Translations under genes and position numbers: made by a program
Assembly (NCBI RefSeq): GCF_000723185.1
Contig: NZ_CBTY010000006.1
Span: forward strand, 62,001-126,000
Source of the DNA: Candidatus Nitrosotenuis uzonensis
GTDB lineage: Archaea > Thermoproteota > Nitrososphaeria > Nitrososphaerales > Nitrosopumilaceae
Length of the DNA: 64,000 bases
Direction: 5' to 3'
Shown: positions 5,591-57,337 of the stretch, piece by piece
Layout of the letters: the number at the start of each line of letters is the position of its first letter
How positions within the stretch are numbered: the stretch's first letter is position 1
The notes under the pieces: generated by a model
What the model saw: only the letters and a program-made list of their open reading frames with translations
What the model was told of the DNA's origin: nothing
Databases searched by the model: none

Positions 5591-6562
5591 TTATGATTTC
5601 TTTGCCGAGTATGCTATCTTTTTACCATACTCTGGCAACGCTTCAGGCCTAGTTTTTACATAGTTTTGTATCTCCTTAGAAGACAGCGTGACTTGGTCGC
5701 CATTTATCTGCAATATTGACTCCCACCGTTTTAGCAAAATTGCAAGATGCTTTTCATCTAGCATAAAACTGGATTGAAACTTGGCTTTGCTGCCAATTTT
5801 TCTGAGTGCGTGTAAAAGCCAGTGTTCTATCTGCATTGATCTTGAATCAACCAGTACATTTGCAATAAATTTTCCTATTCTGGACTGATCCATCATCTGC
5901 GCATTGTTTAGATAAAGCTGCACTTCCCTGACAAAGTACCAGTCAAGACGATGTATCTTCGAGGAGTTTGACGTTGATTCTCTTCTGGCGCCCTCTTTTA
6001 GGCGCTCAATTATGTACTTGAGGTCGGGTTTGGCAAGAGTCTGTATTGTAGCTACAATGTCTTTTACGTTCTTGTCTGCCTCGTACTGGCCGTCCTTTCT
6101 TTGCTGCGTATATCTTCCGACTTTGGATACAATGAGATCCTCCATACTGACGCATCTAATCGTGCCATATCCAGGCACTTGGCCAAGTATGACGTGAGAC
6201 CAAGAAAAATCGTTCATTGGCAACGAATACAAGCTATTGTCCCAGATTTGGACAGTAATTCCAGACTTGAAATAAAAGTCTGCGACTTGAATGCCGTCTT
6301 TGTCTTTTTGAAGATTGCTGGAGGCAATATCTGGCTGCTCCTTTAGCAGATTGACTGCCTTGTCATAATCGTCAACTACAAAATCAATATCAATTGTGGG
6401 CCTTATCATGACATTGTGGATTGCTAATGCCCCAGCACCAAATATGGCATACCTGATTTTGTTGGATTCAAGAAGATTCCCAAAGTAATATGCGGATGGC
6501 AGCCAGATTCTGGGCTGGACTTCGGTCCTTGGTGGTGTTATTTTCTTTCGTTTGCCCTGCAT
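5591..6562 (-). CDS. Nucleotidyltransferase-fold protein, AbiEii-like
   Basis: 323 residues. Residues about 38-65 read YAIFGAGALAIHN...RPTIDIDFVVDD, matching the MNT/AbiEii nucleotidyltransferase pattern (G-A-x-A, then R-x-T-x-D-I-D, where the two Asp residues bind metal). The C-terminal half is mainly helical. It starts 15 bases after the upstream winged-helix gene, forming a two-gene operon with the regulator first, the order of AbiE type IV toxin-antitoxin systems. By analogy it would transfer a nucleotide to an RNA or protein and limit growth or phage; that is inference. Location on a mobile element supports a defence or maintenance role. ATG start. Confidence 0.6.
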   Translation of the reverse strand: MQGKRKKITPPRTEVQPRIWLPSAYYFGNLLESNKIRYAIFGAGALAIHNVMIRPTIDIDFVVDDYDKAVNLLKEQPDIASSNLQKDKDGIQVADFYFKSGITVQIWDNSLYSLPMNDFSWSHVILGQVPGYGTIRCVSMEDLIVSKVGRYTQQRKDGQYEADKNVKDIVATIQTLAKPDLKYIIERLKEGARRESTSNSSKIHRLDWYFVREVQLYLNNAQMMDQSRIGKFIANVLVDSRSMQIEHWLLHALRKIGSKAKFQSSFMLDEKHLAILLKRWESILQINGDQVTLSSKEIQNYVKTRPEALPEYGKKIAYSAKKS

Positions 6563-6577
6563 GTGAAATTACACGTT

Positions 6578-7246
6578 CTACACTGCATTTTCAGAGGGGA
6601 CAAACATCATGTCTTCCCTTGAGCCTTGCTGCATGGCGTTTTTTTCGGTATCCTTATCCGAAATTCTTATTACAACGTCCTCATCTGAGTCAGCCATCCT
6701 CACTATTTGTTCTGTATAGTTCACATCATCCACTGGAAAACATTTGACATAAATCACAGAACTTGCATTGCCGATTGTTTGACGGGGATCCTCCGTGGTC
6801 CTAATGCCTATTCCGTTGAACCCCTCATTGATAATTTCTCTTGCCTTGCTGTGAAATTTATTTGGAACCGCAACCTGGACCATGTTCCGTGATTCGTTTT
6901 TAGTGTACTTGATTTTGCTTGTCCCAACAAGGGCGTAATCGATATTGTGTTTTTCAAACATGCGTGCAACAAAGGTATCCGGATCCCATATTATGGAATT
7001 GATCCATTTTGCCGATTCAACCATGGACTTGACAACTGGGTGATTGCGATTGGTGACTCTAACAAAGACTTTTTTGCCTATCTTTGTGGCCTTGATGACT
7101 CCAATATTTTCAAAGGCGTATACCACTCTGCGAACTGTTGGAAACGGGATTCCTGTCCGGTGCGCAATTCCTGATATGGTGGAGCCTTGTCTGGCTACGT
7201 CTATTATCCTGGCGTTTCGAAAGTCGGGGATTGATTGCATACTCAT
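6578..7246 (-). CDS. Winged-helix regulator with C-terminal nucleotidyltransferase-like domain (AbiEi-like)
   Basis: 222 residues. Residues 12-65 form a winged helix (RNARIIDVARQG, SGIAHRTGIPFPTVRRVVYAF, then the wing KIGKKVFVRVT). Residues about 95-165 (IDYALVGTSKIKY..., VQVAVPNKF) resemble a nucleotidyltransferase scaffold lacking the paired Asp residues. It is the first gene of the pair with the downstream nucleotidyltransferase and is the likely antitoxin or repressor. Box A GTTATATAAATC (minus strand, 7266-7277) lies about 26 bases before the ATG, giving a leaderless mRNA; autoregulation there is plausible but not shown. Confidence 0.6.
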   Translation of the reverse strand: MSMQSIPDFRNARIIDVARQGSTISGIAHRTGIPFPTVRRVVYAFENIGVIKATKIGKKVFVRVTNRNHPVVKSMVESAKWINSIIWDPDTFVARMFEKHNIDYALVGTSKIKYTKNESRNMVQVAVPNKFHSKAREIINEGFNGIGIRTTEDPRQTIGNASSVIYVKCFPVDDVNYTEQIVRMADSDEDVVIRISDKDTEKNAMQQGSREDMMFVPSENAV

Positions 7247-20473: not shown

Positions 20474-20623
20474 GTGGTCGCAGTGCTGACTGAAGAGCAA
20501 ATAAAAAAACTACTGGCAGATATCAAATCTGCTTATCTTGTAGGCTACTTTAACAACGATCTTGATACTGAGGCAGAAAAATGGGGCCAGATCCAGATTC
20601 TGGAATGGATTCTTTCCAAATAA
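20474..20623 (+). CDS. Small conserved-looking helical protein (49 aa)
   Basis: GTG start directly after the previous stop. The sequence has an amphipathic start (LTEEQIKKLLADIKSAYLVG), then YFNNDLDTEAEKWGQIQ and ILEWIL. Similar short proteins occur in marine ammonia-oxidising archaea as far as I recall. Function unknown; tight coupling suggests co-expression with the preceding peptide. Confidence 0.5.
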   Translation: MVAVLTEEQIKKLLADIKSAYLVGYFNNDLDTEAEKWGQIQILEWILSK

Positions 20624-20675: not shown

Positions 20676-20815
20676 ATCTTTGGCGATCTAGTGTAAAGCA
20701 TAACATGTTTTACAAACTGCACTCGTCACTGGCACGCTTGCATAACTAGCAAGCAGTGGTCTACCAGCCTGTTGCTATTGGCATTGTCTGATCGTGCCAG
20801 TGACCATTCTTAAAT
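20676..20815 (+). ncRNA. Candidate structured RNA or long leader
   Basis: GTCACTGGCACG (20725-20736) and CGTGCCAGTGAC (20793-20804) pair perfectly over 12 bases. Inside, GCTTGC-ATAACTA-GCAAGC forms a second hairpin. A box A lies upstream and no gene occupies the stretch. It could be an independent small RNA or a structured 5' leader of the PH-like protein genes that follow. No match to a known RNA family could be made by eye. Confidence 0.4.
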
Positions 20816-20865
20816 TAATCAGGTTTTCTTACCGTGTGAAATCGCTTCGTACAGGAGAGGCAATT

Positions 20866-21162
20866 ATGAATTCATATCTGGTACATTGCAAATATGGTAA
20901 ATCAAATCTCATTTTGACAAACTTCCAAATTATGATTGAAAATTTTAATGGACTTGTGCTGTCACTTGAATACTCTGAGATCTCAGACTTGCAACTAGTC
21001 GATTTAAAGTCGGCCAGAATATCTTGGATGGAAGGAGAAAGTCTCTATCATCTTTCCATCAAATCAAACATGGCATCAAAAATCATACATGATTATGTTA
21101 TTGCCAAGCAAATCTATGAGGAAAAATATGCATCTGTCCAAGAATACAAGGAATACGTTTGA
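20866..21162 (+). CDS. PH-like domain protein, first of a tandem pair
   Basis: 98 residues. The pattern K-Y-G-K-S-N-L-I-L-T-N, then GLVLSLEYSEISDLQL, alternating strands and a C-terminal helix, resembles a PH/GRAM-like fold. The downstream gene is its paralogue of identical length. ATG 20866 is chosen over an upstream GTG because GGAGAGG lies 6 bases before it and the GTG falls inside the 20725-20804 stem. Binding partner unknown. Confidence 0.55.
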   Translation: MNSYLVHCKYGKSNLILTNFQIMIENFNGLVLSLEYSEISDLQLVDLKSARISWMEGESLYHLSIKSNMASKIIHDYVIAKQIYEEKYASVQEYKEYV

Positions 21163-21424
21163 AATAACGTCCAGTCCTCATGGAAAAGGATACCTGCATA
21201 TAACTGATTCTGGAATCTACTTTGAATCTTTGATATATGGTCGTGTTTTCTCTCTTGACTTTGATACTATTACAAGGTATGGTATACAAGGACGACAGTT
21301 CAGAATCGACTGGATCATAAATGACACAAAATTATACTATGTTTTAACTGCGCCGTCCCCAAAACGAATCTTGGTTTCATATCAGAGAACAAATGAAGAA
21401 TATGCACGTTCTGTACAGAAATAA
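21128..21424 (+). CDS. PH-like domain protein, second of a tandem pair
   Basis: 98 residues paralogous to the preceding gene: HGKGYLHITDSGIYFES corresponds to YGKSNLILTNFQIMIEN, and VFSLDFDTITRYGI to VLSLEYSEISDLQL. It overlaps the first gene by 35 bases in another frame, so translation is probably coupled. ATG 21128 gives the same length as the paralogue. Confidence 0.5.
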   Translation: MHLSKNTRNTFEITSSPHGKGYLHITDSGIYFESLIYGRVFSLDFDTITRYGIQGRQFRIDWIINDTKLYYVLTAPSPKRILVSYQRTNEEYARSVQK

Positions 21425-21446: not shown

Positions 21447-22727
21447 TCACTTTTGAAGGTCTTTAGAGTCATGTGAGAGTGTATTTTTCCCAGATCTGTC
21501 ATGCCCCATGGGGGTTGGTTGAAAGTTTCTTTCAATAATTTGAGTGTTTGTCAATGTGGGGCTATGCAGACTCCTTCCAATTCTGGTCGGGTCGGTCATA
21601 GAAATAGAACCTACCGTAGATCTGGCAAGATCTATGCCAGATACTGCAAGATTTCTCATGCCATGCATCGCATTGAATACGCCTGACGCAAGGCGCATTC
21701 CACTACCACTTACAATTCCACCTACGACCGTACCAGCAGATACCGCACCAGTGATTGCTGATGACACAGAATGGAAAATCGAACCGAGTGCAGGAACAAT
21801 CATGACAGGAATAAAAGTGACAAGCCCCATGACTGCAAGAGCCGCAAACCATTCTACGATTGGATCTGGACTGGCTGATGCGAATGTCTGCAGATGTGCG
21901 ACTCCGGCAACTAATGCAAGTGCAGAAAACAGAGGCGCCATAATTAGACCGAACAACGCATCTATCATTCTACGAGTAACTCTTCTGAACATAGGCAGCA
22001 ATGATAAGACTAGCACAAGCGGTATTGCAATTGCAATAATGGCAGTGAGTATCAACCTGATCGTGCTCAGAAGAAACGTCAAAAACATGAATACCAAAAA
22101 TGCTACTGCTTTGAATATTGCAAGAAATGTGGTCATAAACATGTTTTTGAGCGTGGTAAAAGGATCTGTTACACCTGCCACAAGCTTGTCTAGTGAAAAC
22201 TTGCATGATTCATCGTTTGGATGGCATTCTATACCGCTTCCAAGCTTGTTCAGAAGATATGCCACATTGCGTGAAGGTCTATCTGGCTCTTCATAATTTA
22301 GTATCCATACGGATGTATGTTCAACTGAAATCGCAATGAGATCCCATAATGGGGGGAAAAAGAAAAAAAACAAGATAAAGATAAGACCTCTTGACAGAAT
22401 ATTGTATCCGGTTTCTGGTGGGACGAAGTTGATATGTTCAAACATAAAGGACATTCCTGCAAATATTATCACAAATACAAATGCAGTCAACGCAATGTTG
22501 CGCAGGATCTGATAAATCTCAAAATTCCTATTGCCGGTTTCTCTACCGTTGTCTATGCTGTAGTCAAATTTAGGCATCTCTGTTATGAGCTTGATGTATG
22601 ATATTTCAAGAACATCAGACCAGGTCAGAGTTGCTGCCACAACAGCTATTATGGCAACTACGATCCCTAGCATAATCACTCCGGCATCAAGAACAGCCGG
22701 ACGATTCTTCAAAACTAATTTTACCAC
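21447..22727 (-). CDS. VirB6/TrbL/CedA-like polytopic membrane protein
   Basis: 426 residues; probable membrane channel or scaffold of a type IV secretion-like DNA transfer apparatus. Hydrophobic segments: 14-36, 76-98, 110-135, a long double segment about 200-245 and two more to about 320. A large hydrophilic loop (about 140-195) holds ECHPNDESC, two cysteines that may form a disulfide outside the cell. The tail is glycine/serine-rich (SAITGAVSAGTVVGGIVSGSG) then polar, as in TrbL/VirB6 proteins. GTG start placed by a box A (about 22745-22755). It is encoded separately from, but oriented with, the small membrane genes at 23521-24876. Assignment by topology and context, not by a unique motif. 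Confidence 0.6.
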   Translation of the reverse strand: MVKLVLKNRPAVLDAGVIMLGIVVAIIAVVAATLTWSDVLEISYIKLITEMPKFDYSIDNGRETGNRNFEIYQILRNIALTAFVFVIIFAGMSFMFEHINFVPPETGYNILSRGLIFILFFFFFPPLWDLIAISVEHTSVWILNYEEPDRPSRNVAYLLNKLGSGIECHPNDESCKFSLDKLVAGVTDPFTTLKNMFMTTFLAIFKAVAFLVFMFLTFLLSTIRLILTAIIAIAIPLVLVLSLLPMFRRVTRRMIDALFGLIMAPLFSALALVAGVAHLQTFASASPDPIVEWFAALAVMGLVTFIPVMIVPALGSIFHSVSSAITGAVSAGTVVGGIVSGSGMRLASGVFNAMHGMRNLAVSGIDLARSTVGSISMTDPTRIGRSLHSPTLTNTQIIERNFQPTPMGHDRSGKNTLSHDSKDLQK

Positions 22728-22922
22728 ATGTTAAATGTAAAATTTGATTTTAAGATGCAGTTGATTGGAAACTAGAATAATTATTGACGTGATCACGCAG
22801 ATTAGGTGCCTAGATCTGCAAATTATATCATATTGTCCAATCAAGCAACACCAGATGGTCAAGGTTGCAATCCTGCCGCTTCCATGATTTATAGCATGCC
22901 AATCGGGCAATTCTCAAATTGG

Positions 22923-22932
22923 TTTTTAAAGT
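22923..22932 (+). promoter_or_regulatory. Box A of the TBP-paralogue gene
   Basis: TTTTTAAAGT, centred about 24 bases before the TTG start at 22951, predicting a leaderless transcript and supporting that start. Confidence 0.45.
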
Positions 22933-22950
22933 AATCTGGTTTTGCTCTAG

Positions 22951-23496
22951 TTGCAAAAAATAGTAATTGATTTTGTAAATGTTGTAGCTACTACCTGCCT
23001 TCGAAAACAGATCGACCTTGAAAACATGGCAACAAAGCTGCCTAATGCTGAGCTTAACACCTCCAAATTTCCAGGCATAATTCTAAAAATCAAAAACCCG
23101 CGTGCAACAGCGCTAATTTTCAGCTCAGGTGCGCTCATATGCACAGGAACCCAATCTGTCTTACAGGCTCGCCAAACTACAAACAAAGTCATTGAAATGC
23201 TTAGCAATGCAGGATACAATGGTTCCGCAGCTAGAATAAGAATTGAAAACATAGTGGTGTCAGTAAATTATGGCAGGCAGATTAACTTGGATAAATGCGC
23301 AAGGGTACTACCAAGATGTATGTATGAGCCAGAACAGTTTCCAGCAGTATTTTACAGAATGGGTAATCCTATTGCTACCACGTTGATATACAAGACGGGG
23401 AAATTAGTCTGTACGGGTCTGAACACAGAGAAAAAGATTATTCTGGCAATAACGACTATGGAAAGGCAGCTACTCGAAAAACAACTATTCGTTTAA
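22951..23496 (+). CDS. Divergent TATA-binding protein paralogue
   Basis: 181 residues in two direct repeats typical of TBP: repeat 1 DFVNVVATTCL...NTSKFPGIILKI...ALIFSSGALICTG, repeat 2 IENIVVSVNYGRQINLDK...EPEQFPAVFYRM...TLIYKTGKLVCTG. The DNA-kinking aromatic positions (FPG/FPA and LIF/LIY) are mostly kept, but Phe to Tyr and loss of the second Gly distinguish it from the canonical TBP. The TTG start is fixed by its box A. It lies inside the secretion/pilus gene cluster, divergent from the VirB6-like gene; it may direct a TBP-specific set of promoters. A separate housekeeping TBP is expected elsewhere. Confidence 0.82.
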   Translation: MQKIVIDFVNVVATTCLRKQIDLENMATKLPNAELNTSKFPGIILKIKNPRATALIFSSGALICTGTQSVLQARQTTNKVIEMLSNAGYNGSAARIRIENIVVSVNYGRQINLDKCARVLPRCMYEPEQFPAVFYRMGNPIATTLIYKTGKLVCTGLNTEKKIILAITTMERQLLEKQLFV

Positions 23497-23520
23497 ACGT
23501 CAAAAACGTGATAAAAAAAC

Positions 23521-23919
23521 TCACAAATATTTTTTGCCTATTTTCTTTACCAAGAACTTGTTGCTAAAATATGCCTCAAGATGACTGATGCCAAACACAA
23601 ATGATACTATGGAGATTGACACGACGTTAATGGCATGTTCAAAAATAATCGCAATTATAACTATGGTTGCAGTCTCCACCAAGAACTGGACTGGTACTGC
23701 CTTTTTACCCATTTTTCTGTACAGAATCGGAAACACAAGATTTCTTTCATGTTCAAGAAGTTGCAAATTTGAAATGGTAATTCGTAGATCAAAATAATAG
23801 CAGAAAATCCATACTGCAAAGAAAGGAAGTAACAGGTACTCTGGAACACCGGGTCTGAAATAAAAATAAAGGATAAGAGCTGCTGCCATGGGCATGGCAG
23901 TTCTCATATCTGCGAACAT
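23521..23919 (-). CDS. Small polytopic membrane protein of the secretion locus
   Basis: 132 residues with four predicted helices (AAALILYFYF, YLLLPFFAVWIFCYYF, TATIVIIAIIF, VSISIVSFVFGI) and a basic cytoplasmic loop (EHERNLVFPILYRKMGKK). Its ATG overlaps the stop of the upstream two-helix gene (TAATG), showing translational coupling. Size and position suggest a VirB3-like accessory component, but no family motif is visible. Confidence 0.6.
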   Translation of the reverse strand: MFADMRTAMPMAAALILYFYFRPGVPEYLLLPFFAVWIFCYYFDLRITISNLQLLEHERNLVFPILYRKMGKKAVPVQFLVETATIVIIAIIFEHAINVVSISIVSFVFGISHLEAYFSNKFLVKKIGKKYL

Positions 23920-24206
23920 TATCTGAATGGCCGGAGGGCCAATTTCAGCTTTGAGACTGCGATTATCACCACAACAACTATGAGGCCGCCTCCCACGAAT
24001 CTTAGGAATGGTAATATCTTGCTTAGCATGGTCGTAATTGCAGGCGGAATATTCTGTATGTTCGGATTTTCAAAATCCACTCCCAAAAGCCATTCCATTA
24101 TGTCTTGGGCCAAGAATATTACAGCCCCCGCAATACCGGCTGCCACCACTATGTTGATGTATTTCTGTCTGTCTTCCTGATCTAGCGCTGCTTGGTTTAA
24201 CATCAT
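23919..24206 (-). CDS. Two-helix small membrane protein, VirB2/CedA1-like pilin candidate
   Basis: 95 residues: short polar start, helix about 18-40 (INIVVAAGIAGAVIFLAQDI), polar loop with NPNIQNIPPAITTML, helix about 66-90 (FVGGGLIVVVVIIAVSKLKLAL) and a basic end. This two-helix hairpin with no cleavable signal is the build of VirB2/TraA-type conjugative pilins and of the archaeal CedA1 pilus subunit. Coupled to its neighbours on both sides (25 bases after the PrgI-like gene, 1-base overlap downstream). Inference rests on topology and context. Confidence 0.55.
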   Translation of the reverse strand: MMLNQAALDQEDRQKYINIVVAAGIAGAVIFLAQDIMEWLLGVDFENPNIQNIPPAITTMLSKILPFLRFVGGGLIVVVVIIAVSKLKLALRPFR

Positions 24207-24231
24207 TCATCAAAATACGATTGAATTTAAG

Positions 24232-24876
24232 TTAGAAATCTCTGATGTGTATGATTTCTTCAAACACAGGATCTTTTATGCCCTCGACAAAAACTGACAA
24301 TCTCTTATGTCCAAGTGTTTGCGGTATTATCAAAACTTCAATCTCTCCATTGTTATTTGTGGAAAGTGTGGATATTACATTACCGTCAAATTCCACTCTA
24401 GTCTTGGCATTAGAAATTGGAGTTCCATCTGGCATCTCAAGTTTTATCTGGAGACGCATGGGCTTGCGTGGATCTGCAAATACGTCTCGAACTCTAATCT
24501 GTTTTTGTGATGCTGGCATTATTGGTTCAAATAGCTTTGGTTGAGCAAGCTTCTTACTCTGATTCTTGTGATGTGTTTGCCACGTGATTGATTTTTTACA
24601 TGATGTCTGTTTTGCAAGCATAAATATGATGATTGAAATTAGCTGCATTTCAGGTGGTTTTACATGGAATTTTTTGAATCCAAAATAACTACCGACTACA
24701 AGAGCTGTTATCGCTAGTGGGCTCTCAAATGTCTGGTATGCACTCCATGTGATTATGGCAGAAAAGCCTACTATTGCCATTTGTCTCATGCTTAACTTGC
24801 CAATTATTGGAAAGGCAAATACTGCCTCATGAAGTGGGCTGAGATCTTCAAAATAAAGGAGCTCAATCTGCTTCAT
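24232..24876 (-). CDS. PrgI-like membrane protein with C-terminal Ig-like domain
   Basis: 214 residues. The first ~70 (PLHEAVFAFPIIGKLSMRQM, then two helices AIVGFSAIITWSAY and LAITALVVGSYFGFKKF) match the PrgI pattern found next to VirB4 ATPases in Gram-positive and archaeal type IV secretion loci. After a basic linker, residues about 130-214 form a beta domain (RLQIKLEMPDGTPISNAKTRV, NNNGEIEVLIIP) like carboxypeptidase-regulatory or Ig-like repeats, an unusual addition. A box A-like CTTTTATTTT lies about 25 bases before the ATG, so it may also start its own transcript. Confidence 0.65.
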   Translation of the reverse strand: MKQIELLYFEDLSPLHEAVFAFPIIGKLSMRQMAIVGFSAIITWSAYQTFESPLAITALVVGSYFGFKKFHVKPPEMQLISIIIFMLAKQTSCKKSITWQTHHKNQSKKLAQPKLFEPIMPASQKQIRVRDVFADPRKPMRLQIKLEMPDGTPISNAKTRVEFDGNVISTLSTNNNGEIEVLIIPQTLGHKRLSVFVEGIKDPVFEEIIHIRDF

Positions 24877-24909
24877 ATTATCTGATTGACAGAAAAAATA
24901 AAAGGAAAT

Positions 24910-25401
24910 CTATGACATTCTGACTGACACAGACATCATTTCACGTAACGTAGATCCCTCAGGGGTTGTGACTATGACCTCAAGAGGTAGCGTATCGCCT
25001 ATATTGTGGGCAATTATTGGGGAACCGGAAACATCGACTATTCTGGCCGAAGCACTACCTGTCTGGCCTGGACCCAACGTTGCTGGGAATATGGGCACAG
25101 TGAACGGTTGGAGGCCTACTGTGATCGGATCTGCGTCTATTTGCAGATTCACCACACTTGATGAGAACACCTTGTTTCCTGAATTCTTTATCGTTACTGA
25201 CAACCATTGTTCTCCGTTTGTCTGCTTGAGCACGTTTGCGTTCTCTATGGTCATTGAGCCCTTCAATGATGCCGTATTTGCAGCTGATGCAAACACGGAA
25301 TAACCGCTTATTCCTGCCGCGACTGCAACTCCAATCAAAATGATCGAGGTTACAGCAGGGGAAATTGCACGTCTTTTGCTATAGATTTCTGTCATTGACA
25401 T
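24910..25401 (-). CDS. Archaellin/type IV pilin-like protein
   Basis: 163 residues from ATG 25401. The class III signal is SKRRA-ISPAVTSIILIGVAVAAG (residues 8-30): basic residues, a cleavage site for a FlaK/PibD-type peptidase before ISPAV, then the hydrophobic assembly helix. The body is a beta-sandwich of the FlaF/FlaG/CARDB type (SVTIKNSGNKVFSSSVVNL, GPGQTGSASARIV). The frame stays open 300 bases further upstream, but that part overlaps the divergent platform gene and is not needed. It is a likely subunit of the pilus built by the neighbouring FlaJ/FlaI-like proteins. Confidence 0.72.
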   Translation of the reverse strand: MSMTEIYSKRRAISPAVTSIILIGVAVAAGISGYSVFASAANTASLKGSMTIENANVLKQTNGEQWLSVTIKNSGNKVFSSSVVNLQIDADPITVGLQPFTVPIFPATLGPGQTGSASARIVDVSGSPIIAHNIGDTLPLEVIVTTPEGSTLREMMSVSVRMS

Positions 25402-25459
25402 AAAATATAATACAGCAGTTAAGGCAAAGCGCCTTTTTTTCTCATCCTGCTTTACTAAC

Positions 25460-27346
25460 ATGAAGGCAGTCAAGATCATATTATTTTTCACATTCACGAT
25501 CATGTGGGTGTCAGCCTTTGTCCAGAATACTGTATTGTTTTTCTGCTGCATTGGAGTGCTTATTGTGCTTACGGGACTCACAGTAGACAGAGCGTCAATC
25601 AAACTAAGAATCCAAACTACATTTGCATTTACAAGATCTATTCTGACAAAATATGTAGGCAACGGACAGATGAAGATAAGAGTTAGCGCAAACAACAAAA
25701 TCATTAGTTTTACAAAACCAGTGCTAAAGCATAGATTGTTGTCTCTTATACAAAAAAAACTTGGTCAACAAATAGAGAACAAAATAGCAGTATCAGGACG
25801 AGCTCAAAATCCAAGAATCCTTGCACAAAAAAGTCTCTCGTACGCACTAGTTTCTCTTTTAATATCCGTGCCGTTGTCAGCATTTTTGGGATTTTCTCTC
25901 AGTCCTGCCCTGTTTTTTCTTGTAGCCACGCCTATTATATGGTGCATCTATCCGATACTGAAACTAAGATTTGTTGTATTTGACCGTAGACTTGCAATAG
26001 ATGATGAGCTTGCATTTTTCACACTATATGCTAGCGTTATGCAATCAGTTGGACAATATCTTTACCAGTCAATTGCAGACGTGATAGGCAGAGAAATATT
26101 TCCCGGCATAGAGAAGGAGGCAAAAATGCTGTGGAGAAACATACAGCTTTTTGGAATTGATCAACAAAGTGCGCTTAACATACACGCCATGACTCATCCT
26201 AATCAACATTTTAAGAATCTATTACTCGGATATGTCTCAATCAGCAAGAGTGGAGGAGATCTAGGAGCATATATGGAAGCAAAAGCTGGGGAGTTTTTTC
26301 GTAAAACACTATTCAAACATTCTGCATATCGTTCCAGCGCAAACATAATTGGTGAGTTGATGTTGATTCTTCTTACAATACTTCCGACTCTAATACTGAC
26401 ATCCTCATTTCTTCTTGAAGACGGCTCAATCATGACTATGATGGGACTGTCATTTGTTGTGATTCCAGTGCTCACATTATCTATTATTCTGACTATAAAC
26501 TTCTCTCAACCAAAGCATTATGATGACGTACCGTTTGATCCTCGTTCAGTAATCGCAGGAATAATTACAACAATCATCTTGTTGACAGTAGAATATCCAA
26601 TCTGGTTTGTGATTGGAGCAGGTATGGCTGCAGCCTCTGCATGTAACTTTCTGTTATGTGTTAGACAAATTAGACAAATATCGCTTGCCGACGCTGCACT
26701 CCCTGATTTTTTCAGAGATATTACTGAATATAGTAAAATTGGAATTCCGATTCAGAACGCAATAATAAAGATCTCAGAAGGGCGAACATACAATCGATAT
26801 TTTGATGAACTTCTCAGAAAAATAGCCTCTTCCCTAAAGTATGGACGCGATCTTTCAGACGTGCTTCAATCAACAGCCGTGCGTTCCTGGATTGTAAGGA
26901 CATCATTTTTCATTCTGGGCAAAATCGCAAGTAGCGGCGGCGGCACAGCTCAGATTCTAGAGCAATTAACCGCCTTTTCATCAGACGTGCATCAAACAAA
27001 AAAGGACACTCGGGCAAGTGTCAGCATAATTTCGTATTTTGCTCTGACAAGTCCACTTTTAATGTCCTATACCTCGGGGGAAATGTTAAGAATTTTACAA
27101 AAAATCGATCTCAGAATGAGTCCACTGATGCAGAATTCATTTAGCATTCAGTATGCACTTGTAGGAAGTGAGCTTACTGATATGATTGGACTTCTTATCG
27201 TCATATCGGGAACAAGTTTAGGCCTAGTTGTTTCAAAACTAGTTCATTTTACGGTAAAGCATACGCTACTTCTTCTAGTATCTTTGATAATTTCTATTAT
27301 TTCAGTAGTGATCTACCCACATCTTCCATCACTGATTCAAACGTAG
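25460..27346 (+). CDS. FlaJ/TadC-like pilus platform protein with two T2SSF domains
   Basis: 628 residues. Two cytoplasmic F-domain units are visible: about 185-265 (ELAFFTLYASVMQSVGQYL, FKNLLLGYVSISKSGGDLGAYME) and about 415-515 (LPDFFRDITEYSKIGIPIQNAI, KYGRDLSDVLQ, IASSGGGTAQILEQLTAF), each followed by paired membrane helices. This double layout is that of archaeal FlaJ/ArlJ and fused TadB-TadC. It anchors the secretion ATPase at the membrane. It is divergent from the pilin gene and convergent with the FlaI-like gene, 11 bases apart. Confidence 0.8.
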   Translation: MKAVKIILFFTFTIMWVSAFVQNTVLFFCCIGVLIVLTGLTVDRASIKLRIQTTFAFTRSILTKYVGNGQMKIRVSANNKIISFTKPVLKHRLLSLIQKKLGQQIENKIAVSGRAQNPRILAQKSLSYALVSLLISVPLSAFLGFSLSPALFFLVATPIIWCIYPILKLRFVVFDRRLAIDDELAFFTLYASVMQSVGQYLYQSIADVIGREIFPGIEKEAKMLWRNIQLFGIDQQSALNIHAMTHPNQHFKNLLLGYVSISKSGGDLGAYMEAKAGEFFRKTLFKHSAYRSSANIIGELMLILLTILPTLILTSSFLLEDGSIMTMMGLSFVVIPVLTLSIILTINFSQPKHYDDVPFDPRSVIAGIITTIILLTVEYPIWFVIGAGMAAASACNFLLCVRQIRQISLADAALPDFFRDITEYSKIGIPIQNAIIKISEGRTYNRYFDELLRKIASSLKYGRDLSDVLQSTAVRSWIVRTSFFILGKIASSGGGTAQILEQLTAFSSDVHQTKKDTRASVSIISYFALTSPLLMSYTSGEMLRILQKIDLRMSPLMQNSFSIQYALVGSELTDMIGLLIVISGTSLGLVVSKLVHFTVKHTLLLLVSLIISIISVVIYPHLPSLIQT

Positions 27347-27357
27347 ATGTAATCATG

Positions 27358-28827
27358 TTATTTGGAATAGTATTGTGATATGTCAAGACAGGCATTGTTA
27401 TTTGATGTCTGAGCATGTTTGAGCCTTGTTAAAAATGAGATCCTACTCTGTAGGTCTTCCTCCGGTTCTACGTTCAAAATCTTGGCTGCATCGTAAACCT
27501 TGACACTCTTCTCAAGCAGATGCGCAATATTTCTGGTATCATACAAACCAGTTTTCCTATCGTATGAAAAAATCTCGTTAAATGATATGGAGTTGCTCTT
27601 GGAAAGTACCTCCTTTATACTTATTACCTTCCTTACAAAATTTCCATTCTGATCTCTCAGTCTTGTCATGTGTAGTATATACCAGAGTAACATGTGCTGT
27701 CCTGTCTTGATGTTTATCGGCTCAGAAGACAGCCGGTTCAGAGCTGATTCGGCTCCAGATGCATGAAATGAAGTCAATCCGCCATGTCCTGTAGCAGCAC
27801 TCTGGAACAAATACTGGGCTTCCTGGCCCCTGACTTCGCCGACAACCTCAAAATCTGGCCGCATTCTAAGTGATGCCTTGATCAAATCCATTATTGTAAT
27901 ATCAAAATTTGACCTAGTGATCATGGGGGACGATCTCGTAACAAGTCTGACCCAGCGGTAATGCGGAATCTTTAACTCTGGCGTTTCCTCTATTGTGACA
28001 ATCTTCCAGCGTGGGTTTGACATACCGATGAGTGCATTGATAAGAGTGGTCTTACCAGAACCCGTCTCACCAATCACAAGACCGAACGATTTGGCATCAA
28101 TTAACATCCAAAGATAGGCTGTAATCAGCTCATCAAGAGCTTCCATTCGCAGAAGATGTGCTATGGTCAGTGGCGCTCGCGTAAATTTTCTAATATCAAT
28201 TGTAGGACCAGGTAAGGAGATTTCATTTCCATAAGTTACAGTTATCCTGTCTCCATCCTTTGTCATTGCGTTCATTATGGGCATAGCCGTAGTGACAGAA
28301 TTTCCAGATTTTTGTACCAATCTCTGTATGAACGAATTCATAAGATCAAAACTTCCGAACTGGAAATTTGTGTTCAATATGTTAAACTCTGTATGCTTGC
28401 GGTGAACCAAACCTACATTTCTGTCAAATCGTTCAACGGTGATTTCTTCGACATTTTCATCCCTCATTAAAACATCTAGAATACCATACCCTAGTATGTC
28501 ACGAACAAGATAGTATCTAAGACTCTGAAAGTGTTCTGATAGAAGGCCTGTTACTGCTTGTTGTTCTGCTTCTTTCCAGATGTGGTCTTCGACATATTTG
28601 ATGGGATCATCGGTACCATCCAGCGGCTCTAGAGAATGATAAAGATATTCCATAATCTGAGAATACATGGAATGAACATCCTTGGTAAGAGGAGGCTCAA
28701 TTATCAGGTATTGTCCGTCTTGAGTGATGTAAATCTGGCAGCCATTGACCTTGTAGGAATCAATTATCTGTAAGCTAGACAGCTCCGCATGATGGTTTAT
28801 TATCTCAAAGCTGAACCTCCTATTCAT
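27358..28827 (-). CDS. FlaI/TadA/VirB11-like secretion ATPase
   Basis: 489 residues. N-terminal domain to about 200 with DILGYGILDVLMRDENVEEITVE, typical of TadA/FlaI; then GDRITVTYG, Walker A GETGSGKTT (about 270), Asp box VTIEETPELKIP, Walker B/MRPDFEVVGEVRGQEA and His box GHGGLTSFHA. Powers pilin assembly or DNA transport with the FlaJ-like protein. Box A CTTTTATG (about 28847) fits a leaderless ATG at 28827. No FlaH or other archaellum accessory gene is nearby, so this is not a complete archaellum locus. Confidence 0.88.
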   Translation of the reverse strand: MNRRFSFEIINHHAELSSLQIIDSYKVNGCQIYITQDGQYLIIEPPLTKDVHSMYSQIMEYLYHSLEPLDGTDDPIKYVEDHIWKEAEQQAVTGLLSEHFQSLRYYLVRDILGYGILDVLMRDENVEEITVERFDRNVGLVHRKHTEFNILNTNFQFGSFDLMNSFIQRLVQKSGNSVTTAMPIMNAMTKDGDRITVTYGNEISLPGPTIDIRKFTRAPLTIAHLLRMEALDELITAYLWMLIDAKSFGLVIGETGSGKTTLINALIGMSNPRWKIVTIEETPELKIPHYRWVRLVTRSSPMITRSNFDITIMDLIKASLRMRPDFEVVGEVRGQEAQYLFQSAATGHGGLTSFHASGAESALNRLSSEPINIKTGQHMLLWYILHMTRLRDQNGNFVRKVISIKEVLSKSNSISFNEIFSYDRKTGLYDTRNIAHLLEKSVKVYDAAKILNVEPEEDLQSRISFLTRLKHAQTSNNNACLDISQYYSK

Positions 28828-28984
28828 GCAGTCTATACATATTGTTCATAAAAGACGTCACAGCAGAATGCGACCTGATTATGGATGTAAGGCGTCGTTA
28901 AAATCCAAAACAATCTAGTTCTTCTAACTACAAACAAAATTCCAGCAGTATCATCGCCTTAATTGCTGTGTTTGTTTTGTAGCG

Positions 28985-30793
28985 ATGAATTTGCAAAAAA
29001 AGACAAATCAAAAACTAGAATTTGTCTATGAAATCAAGCCTACAAACTTTAGCACTCTACCTGACGATAAAAAAATTGTTGCACTAGGCAGGTTTTTCAA
29101 CATAATCTCATCTATTCAAAAACCGGTCCGAATATTGATGATAAAAGAACCTCTGACACTGGAAATGGGAACAGATATGAGGACACTACAAATTCCAAGA
29201 ACCTACCTTGTATCAGAGGAACCACTGGAACAGTTTCTGCAACAAACAGGATTAGAGTATTCTGTGGCTACGAACAAACCTAAATGGGACATACAGGAAG
29301 AACGGCTATCTTTTCTAAAATTAAAAGACGGTAGTCTGGCAAAATGCTATACATTGTATGGGATTCCTGCCACACTTTCAGCAGCATGGGCTCATCAGCT
29401 ACTCGCATACGTAGACTTGGTGTCAATAAGAATGAGGCCAATTGAGAATCATAGGGCAATATCATCAATTAACAGAATCGTGGGATTGATAACCGCGAGC
29501 ACGGCAAAAAACCCAGCTGCGCACTATAAATATGAAAAGGGAATGGATCTGCTGCAAGCACTCGCAAGGCAAGAGACAAGATTATTCAAATGCTCGCTTG
29601 TAATAATGATACGAGCGCAGCATTCATTTGCATTGAAACTGGCCGACAAGAACTTCAAAAATGCCACAAGATCAACCTTGTCATCATTTGAAGCTACACC
29701 GACAATGCAGATGGGAATGCTTGAGAATGGGATTGGAAAGCAGCTCTACTTTGAGCTTGGCTCTTGCGCCATATTCTATCCCTTTGTCTCAGCTGACATG
29801 ATTGAGATACCGAACGGTGTTGCTCTTGGAATAAACATGAACACACTTGCCCCAGTCATCTTTGACTACTCACAAAGGGACAACTACAATATACTGCTGC
29901 TCGCAACCTCAGGTGCAGGTAAATCCGTTACGGCAAAAACAATACTTGCCCGACTGATAAAAAAATATCCAACATCTCACGTCTTTGTGGTCGATCCTAA
30001 TGGTGAGTATGAAATAGTGGCAGACTTTCTTCAAATACAAGTAATCAGGGCCACCGAAGAGAAAGAACTTGGCCTTGATCCATTCAATCTTTTCAAACCT
30101 GATGATGCGGCGGAAATAATTGGTGATATATCAAAGGCAGATAATGTAGTGAGAAAGGAATTTCGAGCCAAAGCTCAGGGATGTAAATCGATAATAGACC
30201 TGTACGAGAAAGTTGACAAGCTGGCGCAAAGCTATCTTAAGGATCTGGTGACTGGCTCCCTTCACGAAGTTCTCAGTGGAGAGTCCAAGCTTGAGGACAG
30301 AGCAGTGATCTCGCTACGTGGCACTTCTGGAGAGGAAAGAATTTCCATGTTGTTGCTTTTAGCTCTTGGCAAGATCTGGAAAAAGATAAACTCGTTACCT
30401 GTAGCAGTGCCAAAAATACTACTAATTGACGAGGGTTGGATGTTGTTTAACATGTCAAGCGCTGGCAAGTTTCTAGATATGATAGCACGCATGGGTAGAA
30501 AGTTTAACGTAATTTTCATATTTATCACGCAAAGACCGGAAGATGTCATCGAAAACCAGTATGGCAGGGCCATCGCGGAAAATGCTGCTACAAAAATATT
30601 CCTGCAAAATACGGAACAGGCATCGGAGAAGATCAAAAAGGCAATGGATTTGTCCGAGCAAGAAGCTGACATGCTAAAAACGCTCTCAAGAGGACAGTGT
30701 CTTTTTTTAACAAAAGATTATCGCCTTAGAGTCCAGATAACGCCATCAGACGACGAGCTTAAAGTGTTTTCAACTACACCTATGGACAAGTGA
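28985..30793 (+). CDS. VirB4/TraC/CedB-like conjugation ATPase
   Basis: 602 residues. N-terminal ~270 residues include ALKLADKNF and EATPTMQMG as in VirB4/TraC proteins; the ATPase domain has Walker A ATSGAGKSVTAK (about 307-318), VFVVDPNGEYE, Walker B KILLIDEGWML, ITQRPEDV sensor and Arg-finger region, and a C-terminal SRGQCLFLTKDYR segment. A hexameric motor for a type IV secretion-like channel; in Crenarchaea the related CedB energises DNA import. A box A GCCTTAATTG (about 28951-28960) places the leaderless ATG. Together with the VirB6-, VirB2- and PrgI-like genes it defines a transfer apparatus. Confidence 0.83.
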   Translation: MNLQKKTNQKLEFVYEIKPTNFSTLPDDKKIVALGRFFNIISSIQKPVRILMIKEPLTLEMGTDMRTLQIPRTYLVSEEPLEQFLQQTGLEYSVATNKPKWDIQEERLSFLKLKDGSLAKCYTLYGIPATLSAAWAHQLLAYVDLVSIRMRPIENHRAISSINRIVGLITASTAKNPAAHYKYEKGMDLLQALARQETRLFKCSLVIMIRAQHSFALKLADKNFKNATRSTLSSFEATPTMQMGMLENGIGKQLYFELGSCAIFYPFVSADMIEIPNGVALGINMNTLAPVIFDYSQRDNYNILLLATSGAGKSVTAKTILARLIKKYPTSHVFVVDPNGEYEIVADFLQIQVIRATEEKELGLDPFNLFKPDDAAEIIGDISKADNVVRKEFRAKAQGCKSIIDLYEKVDKLAQSYLKDLVTGSLHEVLSGESKLEDRAVISLRGTSGEERISMLLLLALGKIWKKINSLPVAVPKILLIDEGWMLFNMSSAGKFLDMIARMGRKFNVIFIFITQRPEDVIENQYGRAIAENAATKIFLQNTEQASEKIKKAMDLSEQEADMLKTLSRGQCLFLTKDYRLRVQITPSDDELKVFSTTPMDK

Positions 30794-38412: not shown

Positions 38413-38478
38413 ATTGTTGATTTCATATGCGAAAGTGGTCGATTCGCTGGCTTAAGTGGTGCGTACATATTTGTGAGC

Positions 38479-38904
38479 ATGGGCCACAGAGCTATTAGTC
38501 CTGCGATAACTAGCATATTTCTGATCGGATTAGCTGTAACTGGTGCTGTATCTGCCGGAAATGCCATGTTCAAACAAAATGATATCTCCCAAAAGTCCGC
38601 ACGCCTTGACATTCTTGATGCCCAGCTTATCCGGCTTGGAGATGACAAGGCGTATTTTGGCTTCACGGTAAAAAACACCGGCACCGTTACCTTTGCATCT
38701 GTGAATATACGTATGTCTGATGGAACTGGGGCCCTCCAGATATTTACTGATGAGAGCTTGCTTGAACCGGGGGATCAGATTAGCAAATATCTGATCGATG
38801 ATATGGTGTTAGATTCTGGAGTAAAATATCTGGTGCATATTGACGGTGTGACAACTAGTGGTTCAGCATACAGCATTGCGCAAACTGTGACGGCAAGAGG
38901 CTGA
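38479..38904 (+). CDS. Archaellin/pilin-like protein
   Basis: 141 residues starting MGHRAISPAITSIFLIGLAV: a class III signal almost identical to that of the pilin at 24910-25401 (RRAISPAVTSIILIGVAV), then a beta-rich domain (AYFGFTVKNTGTVTFASVNI). Box A GGCTTAAG (38449-38456) is 26 bases upstream. First gene of a three-gene surface operon. Probably a pilus subunit assembled by a FlaI/FlaJ pair such as that at 25460-28827. Confidence 0.7.
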   Translation: MGHRAISPAITSIFLIGLAVTGAVSAGNAMFKQNDISQKSARLDILDAQLIRLGDDKAYFGFTVKNTGTVTFASVNIRMSDGTGALQIFTDESLLEPGDQISKYLIDDMVLDSGVKYLVHIDGVTTSGSAYSIAQTVTARG

Positions 38905-38909
38905 ATGTC

Positions 38910-39389
38910 ATGCGTGTTAAGACAAATTTAAAACCCTCATTCGGAATCTGCCCGAATCTGAGAAAGACGCGAGGTATCTCAGAAGCAGTTTCTGCAATGG
39001 TTCTGCTGACTGTAATTGCAACAGTTTCAATTTATGCCATGAGTAATTCAACAAAAAATACTACCGAGCATGGACTTTCGATATCAGATGTAATGGAACA
39101 AAAGGGAATGCGTACTCAGGAGCTACTAAGCGTAATATCAAAAAACGTCTCGCAAGATAAGATTGTCTTAGAAGTGATTAATTATGGAACTAAGGAATTT
39201 CTCATTAACAAGATATTCGTTGACGGCAACGAGTCTGCATTTACAGTTTTAAGCGCTGAAGGTACTCATATTGAGAATCGGACACTAATGCCACGTCAGA
39301 TATTGAGCCTGCATGTTCCACAATCCGGTCAAACACTGCAGATTCTTACTGATTCTGGTAACATTTTCAACTTCGATTTGGGCTTTTAA
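38910..39389 (+). CDS. Pilin-like protein
   Basis: 159 residues. After a 20-residue leader, KTRGISEAVSAMVLLTVIAT supplies a class III-like signal and assembly helix with Glu at +5 of the mature protein, typical of type IV pilins. The body has beta segments (KIVLEVINYGTKEFLINKIFVDG). Starts five bases after the preceding pilin stop, so co-translated. Confidence 0.65.
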   Translation: MRVKTNLKPSFGICPNLRKTRGISEAVSAMVLLTVIATVSIYAMSNSTKNTTEHGLSISDVMEQKGMRTQELLSVISKNVSQDKIVLEVINYGTKEFLINKIFVDGNESAFTVLSAEGTHIENRTLMPRQILSLHVPQSGQTLQILTDSGNIFNFDLGF

Positions 39390-39409: not shown

Positions 39410-41719
39410 GTGAGAATAATCGGATGTTTTCTCATGGTGATAGCAACGGTGATAATGGTACAATATGCCGGTGGCTCAAATCAGAATGATGATTTGTATC
39501 AAGACAAGTCATACGATATTGTCAGCTCAAATCCGGAAGTATTGTATGGCTGGCATGTTTCTGCTGGTGGCCAACGGATTAGAGGTGATACCTGGTATCT
39601 TGGATCATGCATGATATGGGTTGATACAATTATCACAAAGTCTTATTCAGGTGAATTTGTAAGAAACAATCCGGACAACTCGTTCTATCCGGGTGATGGT
39701 TTTTCCTATTCTTTCACTTATGGCTGGTCAGGTGATCCACTGGAATGTCAAAATCTTACCGTATGTCCTCTTTATTCCAAGCACATAACGCCTGGCAGCA
39801 ACATTGACTGCAACCTTGGAAATCTAAAGGTAGTTCAAAGAAAGGCTTCGGATGGTGGCAATACCATGACTTTATCTGGAACTGCCAATATCTCTGTTGA
39901 CGAGAATGCCTCAGGTCACTACATAGGACTCCAAATTAATGCGCAAAGGTGGGGTTGTTATTTTCCAGAGGGAGTACCTGCAACGTGTGGTTGGGTACAG
40001 ATCTCAACGACAGGAGGCTTTGCACCTTCTGTTCTGAGGCCGAACGTTCAGCTTGCGTTATCGCATGAATATGTGGATGACTCTGACGGTTACAGATCTG
40101 CAAATTTGGACGGCACGTACTATCTTTGGGATGCAATCAATGTAGTGCATGAACCAATATACAAATGGAAAAAAGACAGGGTTGGTACGCTGTCAGTAAG
40201 AATAGCAAAAGTGCATAATCTGGAGATTGAAAAAGAATTCCAGTGTGAGGTAAAAGCATGCAGCCACACACTTGTACACGATGGATTCTTACCGTGGTCA
40301 AGAAATTACGAGTATGGCGATGGTCATACCGTCTACAACGCAACAGACAAGGGCGAAATTAGAAAACACACAATTGCATATGTAGCAGAATTGTACAATT
40401 TGGGGCAGATCGTTAAGAAAGCATCCAACTCAACGGACATACTAGTAGTAGCATACGAGCCGATATTTACTGCCCATCCCTACCTCGTACTAAAAGACGA
40501 GCAATGGTGGAGCTGGTCCAACAGGCAGGGGATAGCGTTAGATTACAAAGGATCCTTGGGAAGTGGTACGGATGATTTGCATAAAATCCATGAAAATCGG
40601 AGAAGCAAGATAAATGCACATGTCTATACTGGCCATGCATACAATCCAATAAGTAAGGTGCCTCTAACTGAGGTTTTTCTATGGAGCGAAGCCAATCCGA
40701 TTTCAAGGGAGCCAGAATATGGATGTGCAGATGAAGAGTTTGATTTGTCATCATTTGAAGCAAAAAGTGAAAGGACTGCAATGTTCGTTAAGGCCGGATA
40801 TGGTAAGATTGCATTTTCATATCCTATACTCAAAACAATGTTGGAAAAACGATACATAAATGCGACAATTGATAACACTTTGCAATCTGTAAATTTTGCA
40901 GGATTAAAAACAAGAAATCTCACTGAATATCAGTACCAGTATCCTGATGTGAAATTCAACAATCCAATCAAAATACTCACATATGATTCTGAAGGGTCAA
41001 GAACGGAACTACCAGTACAGGTAAGCATGACTCCTGATTTGACCAAAGACGCAATGTACATACATGATTACACATGCAAGAAAATCTTACGGGATACGGG
41101 AAACCCAAAGCTTGCACACATAATAGTCTCTGATATGTATGGCAAGGCAAACACTGCAAGCGGGAGGGGATATCTTAACATGAAGGCACATCTTACGTCT
41201 ATTTGGTTTCCGTCATTTTACTCAATTCTGTCAGACGATCCACTATCAATTCCCATTCATCAGGGATATAGAACGCTTTCACCATACGATATTGCAATAA
41301 CTGTGGGGGATAAGAATAGAACACTGAGCCGCGTTGTAAGTTTTCTATCTCCCTTCGTACATATAGTGAATCTTGATTCTGACAACCATCTTAACGTGAC
41401 TCAAAGTAACGGCCTCGTAAGAATCAATCCACATGAAACATTTGGCGAGATAGAAACAGTTTCTGTCAACGGTGTATTCTTGGAAGAAAACTGCACGAAT
41501 GGTTGCACCACTACGGATAAGGGAGACGATCTTGAGATTGAAGCCTGGAATATCTGGGGTGGGCGTGCTCTAGGCTATGTAAAAAGATACAAGACAAGTA
41601 TGCAAGAAGAACACGATTGGGACGCTATACTAATTGCAGCAATGATAATGCTGGTAGGCGTATTCATATGGAGATTCTCAGGACAGATCCTACAGTATCT
41701 AGGGCTCAAAAGAGCCTAA
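39410..41719 (+). CDS. Large cell-surface protein with C-terminal membrane anchor
   Basis: 769 residues, GTG start. N-terminal hydrophobic segment (IIGCFLMVIATVIMVQYAGG), a long beta-rich exterior with several cysteine pairs (GSCMIW; LECQNLTVCPLY; ECEVKAC-like QCEVKACS; ENCTNGC), and a C-terminal helix (AILIAAMIMLVGVFIWRF) with a basic tail. Transcribed with the two pilin-like genes. It could be a pilus-associated adhesin or minor subunit; no family recognised. Confidence 0.6.
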   Translation: MRIIGCFLMVIATVIMVQYAGGSNQNDDLYQDKSYDIVSSNPEVLYGWHVSAGGQRIRGDTWYLGSCMIWVDTIITKSYSGEFVRNNPDNSFYPGDGFSYSFTYGWSGDPLECQNLTVCPLYSKHITPGSNIDCNLGNLKVVQRKASDGGNTMTLSGTANISVDENASGHYIGLQINAQRWGCYFPEGVPATCGWVQISTTGGFAPSVLRPNVQLALSHEYVDDSDGYRSANLDGTYYLWDAINVVHEPIYKWKKDRVGTLSVRIAKVHNLEIEKEFQCEVKACSHTLVHDGFLPWSRNYEYGDGHTVYNATDKGEIRKHTIAYVAELYNLGQIVKKASNSTDILVVAYEPIFTAHPYLVLKDEQWWSWSNRQGIALDYKGSLGSGTDDLHKIHENRRSKINAHVYTGHAYNPISKVPLTEVFLWSEANPISREPEYGCADEEFDLSSFEAKSERTAMFVKAGYGKIAFSYPILKTMLEKRYINATIDNTLQSVNFAGLKTRNLTEYQYQYPDVKFNNPIKILTYDSEGSRTELPVQVSMTPDLTKDAMYIHDYTCKKILRDTGNPKLAHIIVSDMYGKANTASGRGYLNMKAHLTSIWFPSFYSILSDDPLSIPIHQGYRTLSPYDIAITVGDKNRTLSRVVSFLSPFVHIVNLDSDNHLNVTQSNGLVRINPHETFGEIETVSVNGVFLEENCTNGCTTTDKGDDLEIEAWNIWGGRALGYVKRYKTSMQEEHDWDAILIAAMIMLVGVFIWRFSGQILQYLGLKRA

Positions 41720-51577: not shown

Positions 51578-51766
51578 TAAATCAGCTCAGAAAATTTTAT
51601 GGTGTTATAGCATATGTTACACAAAAAGAATCAATCTGTCTTACAATTAACACACAGAACATTTTTTCAATCGTTATAAATATGTGCTTGTCACTATGGT
51701 TTTTCTACATTATAAATTTTGAAAATTTGTCCAATCTACCTTAAGTGTCAATCGTTGTTTAATTTC

Positions 51767-57271: not shown

Positions 57272-57337
57272 GAACAATATGGAGAATTGCGTATTAAGGA
57301 TGAAGCAAAATACGTGAAGAAAAAAATCACATATATC

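Follow-up and report, generated by a model that had tools for sequence, protein, structure and literature searches.

A chromosomal locus of Candidatus Nitrosotenuis uzonensis joining a conjugation-type channel to an Ups-like pilus, probably a domesticated transfer machine

A 64,000-nucleotide stretch of the genome of the ammonia-oxidising archaeon (AOA) Candidatus Nitrosotenuis uzonensis (the window, G000:C6:62001-126000; genome of 1.64 Mb, 99.7% complete; genomes, contigs and loci are cited by G, C and L numbers) holds at 21447-30793 a core locus in which genes of a VirB-type channel are mixed with those of a type IV pilus. On balance, we favour reading the locus as an archaeal machine for conjugation-type transfer that resides in the chromosome, has probably been domesticated and brings its own Ups-like pilus; it would be a relative of the transfer modules of thaumarchaeal integrative and conjugative elements (ICEs). 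The reading draws on gene content, homology, co-inheritance of the parts, purifying selection in relatives and the lack of mobile-element hallmarks at the locus. All eight proteins named in the original prediction, which was made from the letters of the window, are encoded by intact open reading frames (ORFs) where it had placed them, with strong profile matches for VirB4, FlaI and the platform. Its part list overlooked a TATA-binding protein (TBP) at 22951-23496 and GRAM-family genes at 20794-21424, and its extent of 9 kb describes the core, with further parts lying as far out as 60115. Same-genus genomes that lack the system share DNA homology with the window up to 20621 and again from 30841 on, and the pieces fetched from those relatives did not show both flanks of the core together; the core thus fills an insertion or breakpoint of ~10 kb. 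The core genes and their upstream neighbours are as follows, with E-values in brackets.

20794-21162, plus strand: up1, GRAM/PH-like family protein 1 (family beside the system in several genera)
21089-21424, plus strand: up1b, GRAM/PH-like family protein 2 (same family as up1)
21447-22727, minus strand: VirB6-like polytopic channel protein (NF046089, 5.6e-4; plasmid profile match)
22951-23496, plus strand: TBP paralogue (PF00352, 9.5e-48)
23521-23919, minus strand: four-helix membrane protein, several predicted helices (15-sequence family)
23919-24206, minus strand: VirB2/CedA1-type pilin candidate, two hydrophobic helices (T4SS_pilin, 6.5e-4; TrbC, 0.037)
24232-24876, minus strand: PrgI-like protein, possible C-terminal immunoglobulin (Ig)-like domain (PF12666, 0.0084; MG4, 0.0094)
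24910-25395, minus strand: type IV pilin, 161 amino acids (aa), class III signal RRA|ISP (UpsA, arch_flag_Nterm, motif)
25460-27346, plus strand: double FlaJ/TadC platform, UpsF-like (T2SSF, 2.6e-15, two stretches; UpsF, 2.1e-79)
27358-28827, minus strand: FlaI/TadA-type assembly ATPase, Walker A GETGSGKT (T2SSE, 7e-31)
28985-30793, plus strand: VirB4-type ATPase (PF12846, 1.4e-20; NF045975, 3.8e-37)

Judged by family profiles, the identities of VirB4, FlaI and the double platform are strong, and those of PrgI, VirB2 and VirB6 weak but consistent. VirB4 exceeds the cut-off of PF12846 and stays below the equivalog cut-off of NF045975, the VirB4 of mycoplasma ICEs. The best family of the platform is UpsF (267.5 bits against a cut-off of 400), and the FlaI-type ATPase reaches 298.8 bits with archaellum FlaI (cut-off 550) and 272 bits with BasE, both below cut-off. 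The core pilin, with one N-terminal helix, matches UpsA (3e-4, 20.9 bits against a cut-off of 130) and arch_flag_Nterm (8e-4), again below cut-off; it is a pilin, as had been proposed, but of the type IV/Ups kind and not an archaellin proper. Beside the FlaI-type ATPase, no other gene of the locus matched an archaellum-specific family in the family search, in agreement with the earlier statement that FlaH and other archaellum genes are missing. The VirB6-like protein matches NF046089 (CD3337/EF1877 mobilome membrane protein) below cut-off, as do 4 of 17 members of its family, and both matches of the VirB2-like protein are also below cut-off; the adjacency of the VirB2-like gene to the four-helix and PrgI genes is conserved across loci, and the PrgI-like gene adjoins VirB4 in Nitrososphaeria and Bathyarchaeia. 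The matches behind the VirB6 and VirB2 kinship that had been put up for profile and structure searches are weak. Foldseek matches of the VirB6-like model (predicted local distance difference test score, pLDDT, 61) in the PDB include several R388 VirB6 stalk chains, all with E > 0.1, the best at prob 0.91 and a template-modelling (TM) score of 0.44 of the target, a resemblance that is suggestive only. Against PDB sequences the VirB6 profile gave nothing usable, and the G-protein-coupled receptor matches of the VirB2 profile were rejected as composition artefacts.

The VirB-type channel and the type IV pilus belong to one genetic unit, which is supported by synteny and co-occurrence. In a class-wide sample of 300 genomes plus G000, VirB4 homologues (E < 1e-20) were found in 56 genomes, and 29 of 54 fetched loci, spread over 14 genera, have FlaI or FlaJ no more than 10 kb from VirB4. 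Most of the set is contiguous in L124, L135 and L137, and the same genes, in some cases nearly all contiguous, recur in Nitrosotalea-like, Cenarchaeum and further loci. The order in L124 is GRAM, VirB6, prepilin peptidase, FlaJ, pilin, PrgI, VirB2, four-helix, FlaI, VirB4, pilin, pilin, S769, S361, GRAM, S819, and in L135 S925 is added after S819 (S769, S361, S819 and S925 are surface proteins listed below). The system-specific platform (E < 1e-90) was found only in VirB4-positive genomes, except G106 and G297 (VirB4 fragment), which bears out a single genetic unit; platform homologues of other pili exist without VirB4. Nitrosocaldus has the channel, S769 and a coupling protein but no FlaI or FlaJ match at a distance of up to ~10 kb from VirB4. 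The channel can thus occur with no such pilus beside it, and of the independence of the two halves that had been offered as a possible refutation this much was found.

DNA transfer is favoured because VirB4, VirB6, PrgI and the type IV coupling protein (T4CP) all have homologues on Sulfolobus plasmids (pNOB8, pKEF9, pHVE14, pHGQ25, pRT2), several of which are typed as conjugative; no other observation speaks as strongly for DNA as the substrate. The alignment of VirB4 with the VirB4-type ATPases of Sulfolobus plasmids (25-30% identity) and of a Thermococcus plasmid (28%) covers 81-100% of its length. In profile-profile comparisons, the VirB6 profile matched a 586-593-aa protein of Sulfolobus tengchongensis plasmids with a probability of 95.8%, the PrgI profile small Sulfolobus-plasmid proteins with 90% and 78%, and the T4CP profile the Sulfolobus-plasmid coupling protein with 100%. 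Mismatched pairs mostly stayed below 6%, the exceptions being VirB6 against a pNOB8-type protein (47%, where a weaker match was to be expected) and plasmid VirB4 with the T4CP profiles (15-25%). By PLSDB typing, pNOB8, pKEF9 and pHVE14 are conjugative, and pHGQ25 and pRT2 non-mobilizable.

The coupling protein itself was said to be missing, which holds for the core locus (no such gene within 21447-30793) but not for the genome. Contig C9 of G000 encodes a 648-aa VirD4/TraG-type ATPase with an adjacent 392-aa gene (T4CP pair); the ATPase exceeds the cut-offs of PF12696, PF02534 and PF10412 and is homologous to the plasmid coupling protein. The same pair lies ~15 kb from VirB4 in G090, some carriers have a coupling-type ATPase within ~10 kb of VirB4, and in several genomes the T4CP ATPase match falls inside a single frame of ~1050 aa. 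Since VirB4 is present in 21 of 31 T4CP-positive genomes, the link between the two is real but not strict. The C9 protein may be the partner of this channel in G000.

Further parts of the system lie in the window outside the core.

38473-38904, plus strand: second type IV pilin, RA|ISP (family downstream of VirB4 in other genera)
38910-39389, plus strand: third type IV pilin, RG|ISE (motif; family near VirB4 elsewhere)
39410-41719, plus strand: S769, 769-aa surface protein with signal helix, beta-sandwich domains and C-terminal anchor (co-occurrence with VirB4; model)
51719-52804, plus strand: S361, one N-terminal hydrophobic helix (follows S769 in L124, L135 and L137)
54818-57277, minus strand: S819, large exported protein (homologue beside the system in L031, L124, L135 and L137)
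57338-60115, minus strand: S925, large exported, C-terminally anchored protein (adjoins the core in L117)

The S361 family is found within 10 kb of VirB4 in 5 genera, and S925 stands directly beside the core in Nitrosotenuis sp. L117 and occurs also in L103-L105, L110 and L135. These satellites keep the gene order of L135, with housekeeping genes (riboflavin, aldehyde dehydrogenase, transporter) interspersed; the complete relative G003 is collinear with the window along the riboflavin and aldehyde-dehydrogenase stretches, and the satellite genes have no match in the searched parts of that genome. S769 occurs in 39 of 300 genomes, and 36 of these 39 are VirB4-positive, against 56 of 301 genomes overall; of the three that lack VirB4, G106 and G142 show partial matches and G140 a frame that a stop interrupts. 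A co-occurrence P of 1e-28 ignores phylogenetic relatedness and is not relied on. The model of S769 (pLDDT 81.5) consists of beta-sandwich domains and a C-terminal membrane helix, and its structure matches are of a generic sort, to Ig-like adhesins and receptors with streptococcal antigen I/II domains among them, which fits, without proving, a role in cell contact.

Two protein families of the core call for a separate remark. The up1/up1b family consists elsewhere of longer single proteins of 250-380 aa; the window copy of up1 has no Pfam match, the true start of up1b is probably 3′ of 21089, and PF02893 GRAM recognises 5 of the 13 members of the family (best 4.4e-6). In the four-helix family (15 sequences, alignment A4) D44, T48, E58, E82, H113 and N120 are invariant and no member has a Pfam match; such invariance could reflect catalysis or metal binding, and for the protein at 23521-23919 a VirB3 role is an unproven candidate. 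The part list of archaeal conjugation-type systems is thereby extended by S769, S361, S819, S925, the GRAM-family proteins and TBP, most of them without a Pfam family.

The machine might work as follows. Once pilins had been cut by the prepilin peptidase of the cell, of which G000 has one in its genome, the FlaI ATPase would build them into a pilus on the UpsF-like platform. Two cells would be held together by this pilus along with S769, S361, S819 and S925, the exported surface proteins, and the VirB6, VirB2-like and four-helix proteins would form the membrane passage. PrgI would dock VirB4, which would power assembly or transport, and a coupling-type ATPase from elsewhere in the genome would bring the substrate, most likely DNA. 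The TBP of the locus would switch the genes of the system on as a dedicated initiation factor. Transfer may run outward, as in conjugation, or inward, as in Ced.

A TBP near the system is found also in L068 (14064-14606, a Cenarchaeum-like genome), in L077 and in many Bathyarchaeia loci, and TBP or transcription factor B (TFB) genes beside transfer genes may be recurrent private basal transcription factors. TBP was also seen beside VirB4/PrgI-type transfer genes in L140-L143, L145, L146, L148, L150, L153 and L159, and the Nitrosocaldus and ICE loci have TFB in its place.

It is conceivable, though rather unlikely, that the locus is an ICE transfer module, mobilisable in trans or a decaying remnant, and serves no host function. 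G000 and G082 carry the system at different positions of the chromosome, its distribution is patchy even within Nitrosotenuis, and G140 holds broken remnants, all as an ICE origin would have it. The same is true of the TFB-ParB pair that adjoins VirB4 in Nitrosocaldus loci, of the two system copies in the Nitrosotalea genome G078 (L034/L104 and L035/L102/L103, 85-97% identical in the main shared stretches) and of the mix of VirB4, VirB6, TadC, FlaI and pilin that thaumarchaeal ICEs carry (Krupovic et al., 2019; PMC6563490). At the locus itself, hallmarks of a mobile element were not seen. Neither a direct repeat of at least 10 bases common to both core ends nor a tRNA near them was found, which upholds the earlier description of the locus as chromosomal and free of att sites; ParB and TFB have no match in the window, and PF00589 (integrase) matches once in the genome, in a frame that contains two stops and lies ~68 kb outside the window. 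Between the satellites stand riboflavin, aldehyde dehydrogenase and transporter genes. In the VirB4 tree, Nitrosotenuis (99/100), Nitrosotalea (100/100) and most Nitrosocaldus group by genus, and the FlaI tree has the same main groups for Nitrosotenuis and Nitrosotalea. The frames are intact, and ratios of nonsynonymous to synonymous substitution (dN/dS) of 0.03-0.31, for both halves and the surface proteins in close pairs of Nitrosotalea and Nitrososphaera, indicate purifying selection on both halves in relatives; hardly any such ratio is available for the window itself because synonymous sites against G082 are saturated for most genes. The patchiness within Nitrosotenuis, the remnants in G140 and a replaced left half in G090 suggest repeated loss, and some gain by transfer is possible. 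No sign of viral origin was seen, as a scan of IMG/VR with VirB4 gave only 9 distant matches.

Several observations concern the surroundings of the core and of its relatives. A small ORF of ~46 aa at 20484-20621, with 80-86% DNA identity in relatives, ends at the left core boundary; it was considered as an RNA or tRNA attachment site and rejected, since neither Rfam nor ARAGORN reported a match and the sequence reads as the short frame just described. Just 5′ of the first GRAM-family gene, at 20725-20804, a perfect 12-base inverted repeat, GTCACTGGCACG, frames a strong hairpin (-43.6 kcal/mol over 20690-20815, z -4.0), which was rejected as an element end, no second copy being present in the window or the other loci examined. 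In G090 (N. chungbukensis; L032, 643-8452) the left half of the transfer locus is replaced by apparent defence genes that look like a HerA-like ATPase, a GHKL-like ATPase, a Vsr-like nuclease and a Dcm-like methylase; FlaI is truncated there and VirB4 intact. In one of the G078 copies an AbiE-like gene pair separates FlaI from the four-helix gene, and the Cenarchaeum-like L068 has an actin/ParM-like gene (6184-7173) between VirB6 and FlaI. In the window, a DUF6036 nucleotidyltransferase and a neighbouring 222-aa gene (5591-7246) are possibly an AbiE-like toxin-antitoxin pair.

Alternatively, the locus may encode an apparatus for protein secretion and adhesion, whose VirB-type channel exports surface proteins or effectors and whose pilus serves attachment; we hold this to be improbable. 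Several large exported surface proteins are co-inherited with the system, but they carry N-terminal signal-like helices of their own. No coupling gene lies within the locus, but a coupling-type ATPase is encoded in the genome and in some carriers within ~10 kb of VirB4, and the channel parts have homologues in plasmid transfer systems. A relaxase was not found, as had been stated before, PF03432, the only relaxase family searched, being absent from the genome; conjugative plasmids of Sulfolobus and thaumarchaeal ICEs likewise have no known relaxase (PMC6563490). The Ups/Bas-related pilus of AOA, listed with unknown function (Abby et al., 2020; PMC7554672), also speaks for this reading. Finally, that the halves are separate systems and neighbours by chance is very hard to maintain, the Nitrosocaldus channels without nearby FlaI or FlaJ and the platforms of other pili without VirB4 notwithstanding, and was rejected on the synteny in 29 of 54 VirB4 loci from 14 genera, the near confinement of the Ups-like platform to VirB4-positive genomes and the existence of nearly complete contiguous loci.

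Some points weigh against a domesticated transfer machine. The VirB2 and VirB6 assignments are weak taken singly; 10 of the 31 T4CP-positive genomes have no VirB4; the relaxase of family PF03432 is missing; and profile comparison detected no sequence kinship between S769 and the similarly placed 780-aa protein of a Sulfolobus plasmid. With less confidence than the transfer machine as such, we tentatively propose a more specific form of it, namely a DNA-exchange machine owned by the AOA host, in which an Ups-type aggregation pilus, a conjugation channel, Ig-like surface proteins and a private TBP make up one co-inherited unit, dispersed in the Nitrosotenuis chromosome and switched on by its own basal transcription factor. 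In the literature searched, no AOA-specific mechanism of DNA exchange other than ICEs was found. The Ups/Bas-related pilus of AOA would thereby gain a testable function and nitrifiers a testable route of DNA exchange, for which cultured carriers may exist among the closed Nitrososphaera-type genomes G131 and G108 and in Nitrosotenuis chungbukensis G090.

Among known systems, thaumarchaeal ICEs combine VirB and pilus genes in the same way, with VirB4, VirB6, a TadC platform, a FlaI-type ATPase and pilins in one module, as published in 2019 (Krupovic et al.; PMC6563490). Like the present locus, they have no recognisable relaxase and a basal factor nearby, transcription factor IIB (TFIIB) in the ICEs and TBP here. 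Unlike them, the locus lacks an integrase, att repeats and ParB (the TFIIB-ParB pair), has its coupling gene on another contig and has its parts interspersed with housekeeping genes; S769, S361, S819, S925 and the GRAM-family proteins are not described for the ICEs in the sections of that report drawn on here. The Sulfolobus plasmids also have a large protein with an N-terminal hydrophobic stretch between PrgI and VirB6, placed similarly to S769, but their system is plasmid-borne and the annotation of the plasmid records consulted names no type IV pilus genes.

The Ced and Ted systems of Crenarchaeota, which import DNA and originate from type IV secretion systems (T4SSs), resemble the locus as domesticated, T4SS-derived chromosomal channels of VirB6, VirB2 and VirB4 types (Beltran et al., 2023; PMC9905601). 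They had served as the comparison in the original prediction but are not the closest relatives: VirB4 is far nearer to monoderm VirB4 (3.8e-37, mycoplasma ICE) than to CedB (1.8e-6, 26.9 bits against a cut-off of 700), the family search listed no CedA or CedA1 match for the VirB6-like or VirB2-like protein, and Ced works with a separate Ups pilus (PMC9905601), whereas the pilus genes here stand in the same locus. The best NCBIfam matches of the VirB4, VirB6 and VirB2-like proteins are to the PrgI/PrgJ-type conjugation systems of monoderms (Firmicutes, Tenericutes), from which the present system differs in being archaeal and in having a pilus module and S769-type surface proteins. With the Ups/Bas pili of Sulfolobales it shares an UpsF-like platform and an UpsA-like pilin, homologous but below the UpsF and UpsA equivalog cut-offs; as to the retraction that the original prediction allowed for, archaea have been reported to lack PilT-family ATPases (PMC4858521). 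By its sequences, the pilus is probably the Ups/Bas-related AOA pilus of Abby et al. (2020), whose report, in the sections drawn on here, does not mention a link to a VirB channel (PMC7554672). Earlier work had covered ICE modules that hold VirB genes together with pilus genes (PMC6563490), the orphan AOA pilus related to Ups/Bas (PMC7554672) and the descent of Ced and Ted from T4SSs (PMC9905601). What is added here is the dispersed form on the chromosome, a longer list of parts, the TBP that recurs beside such genes and the tie, drawn component by component, to Sulfolobus plasmids.

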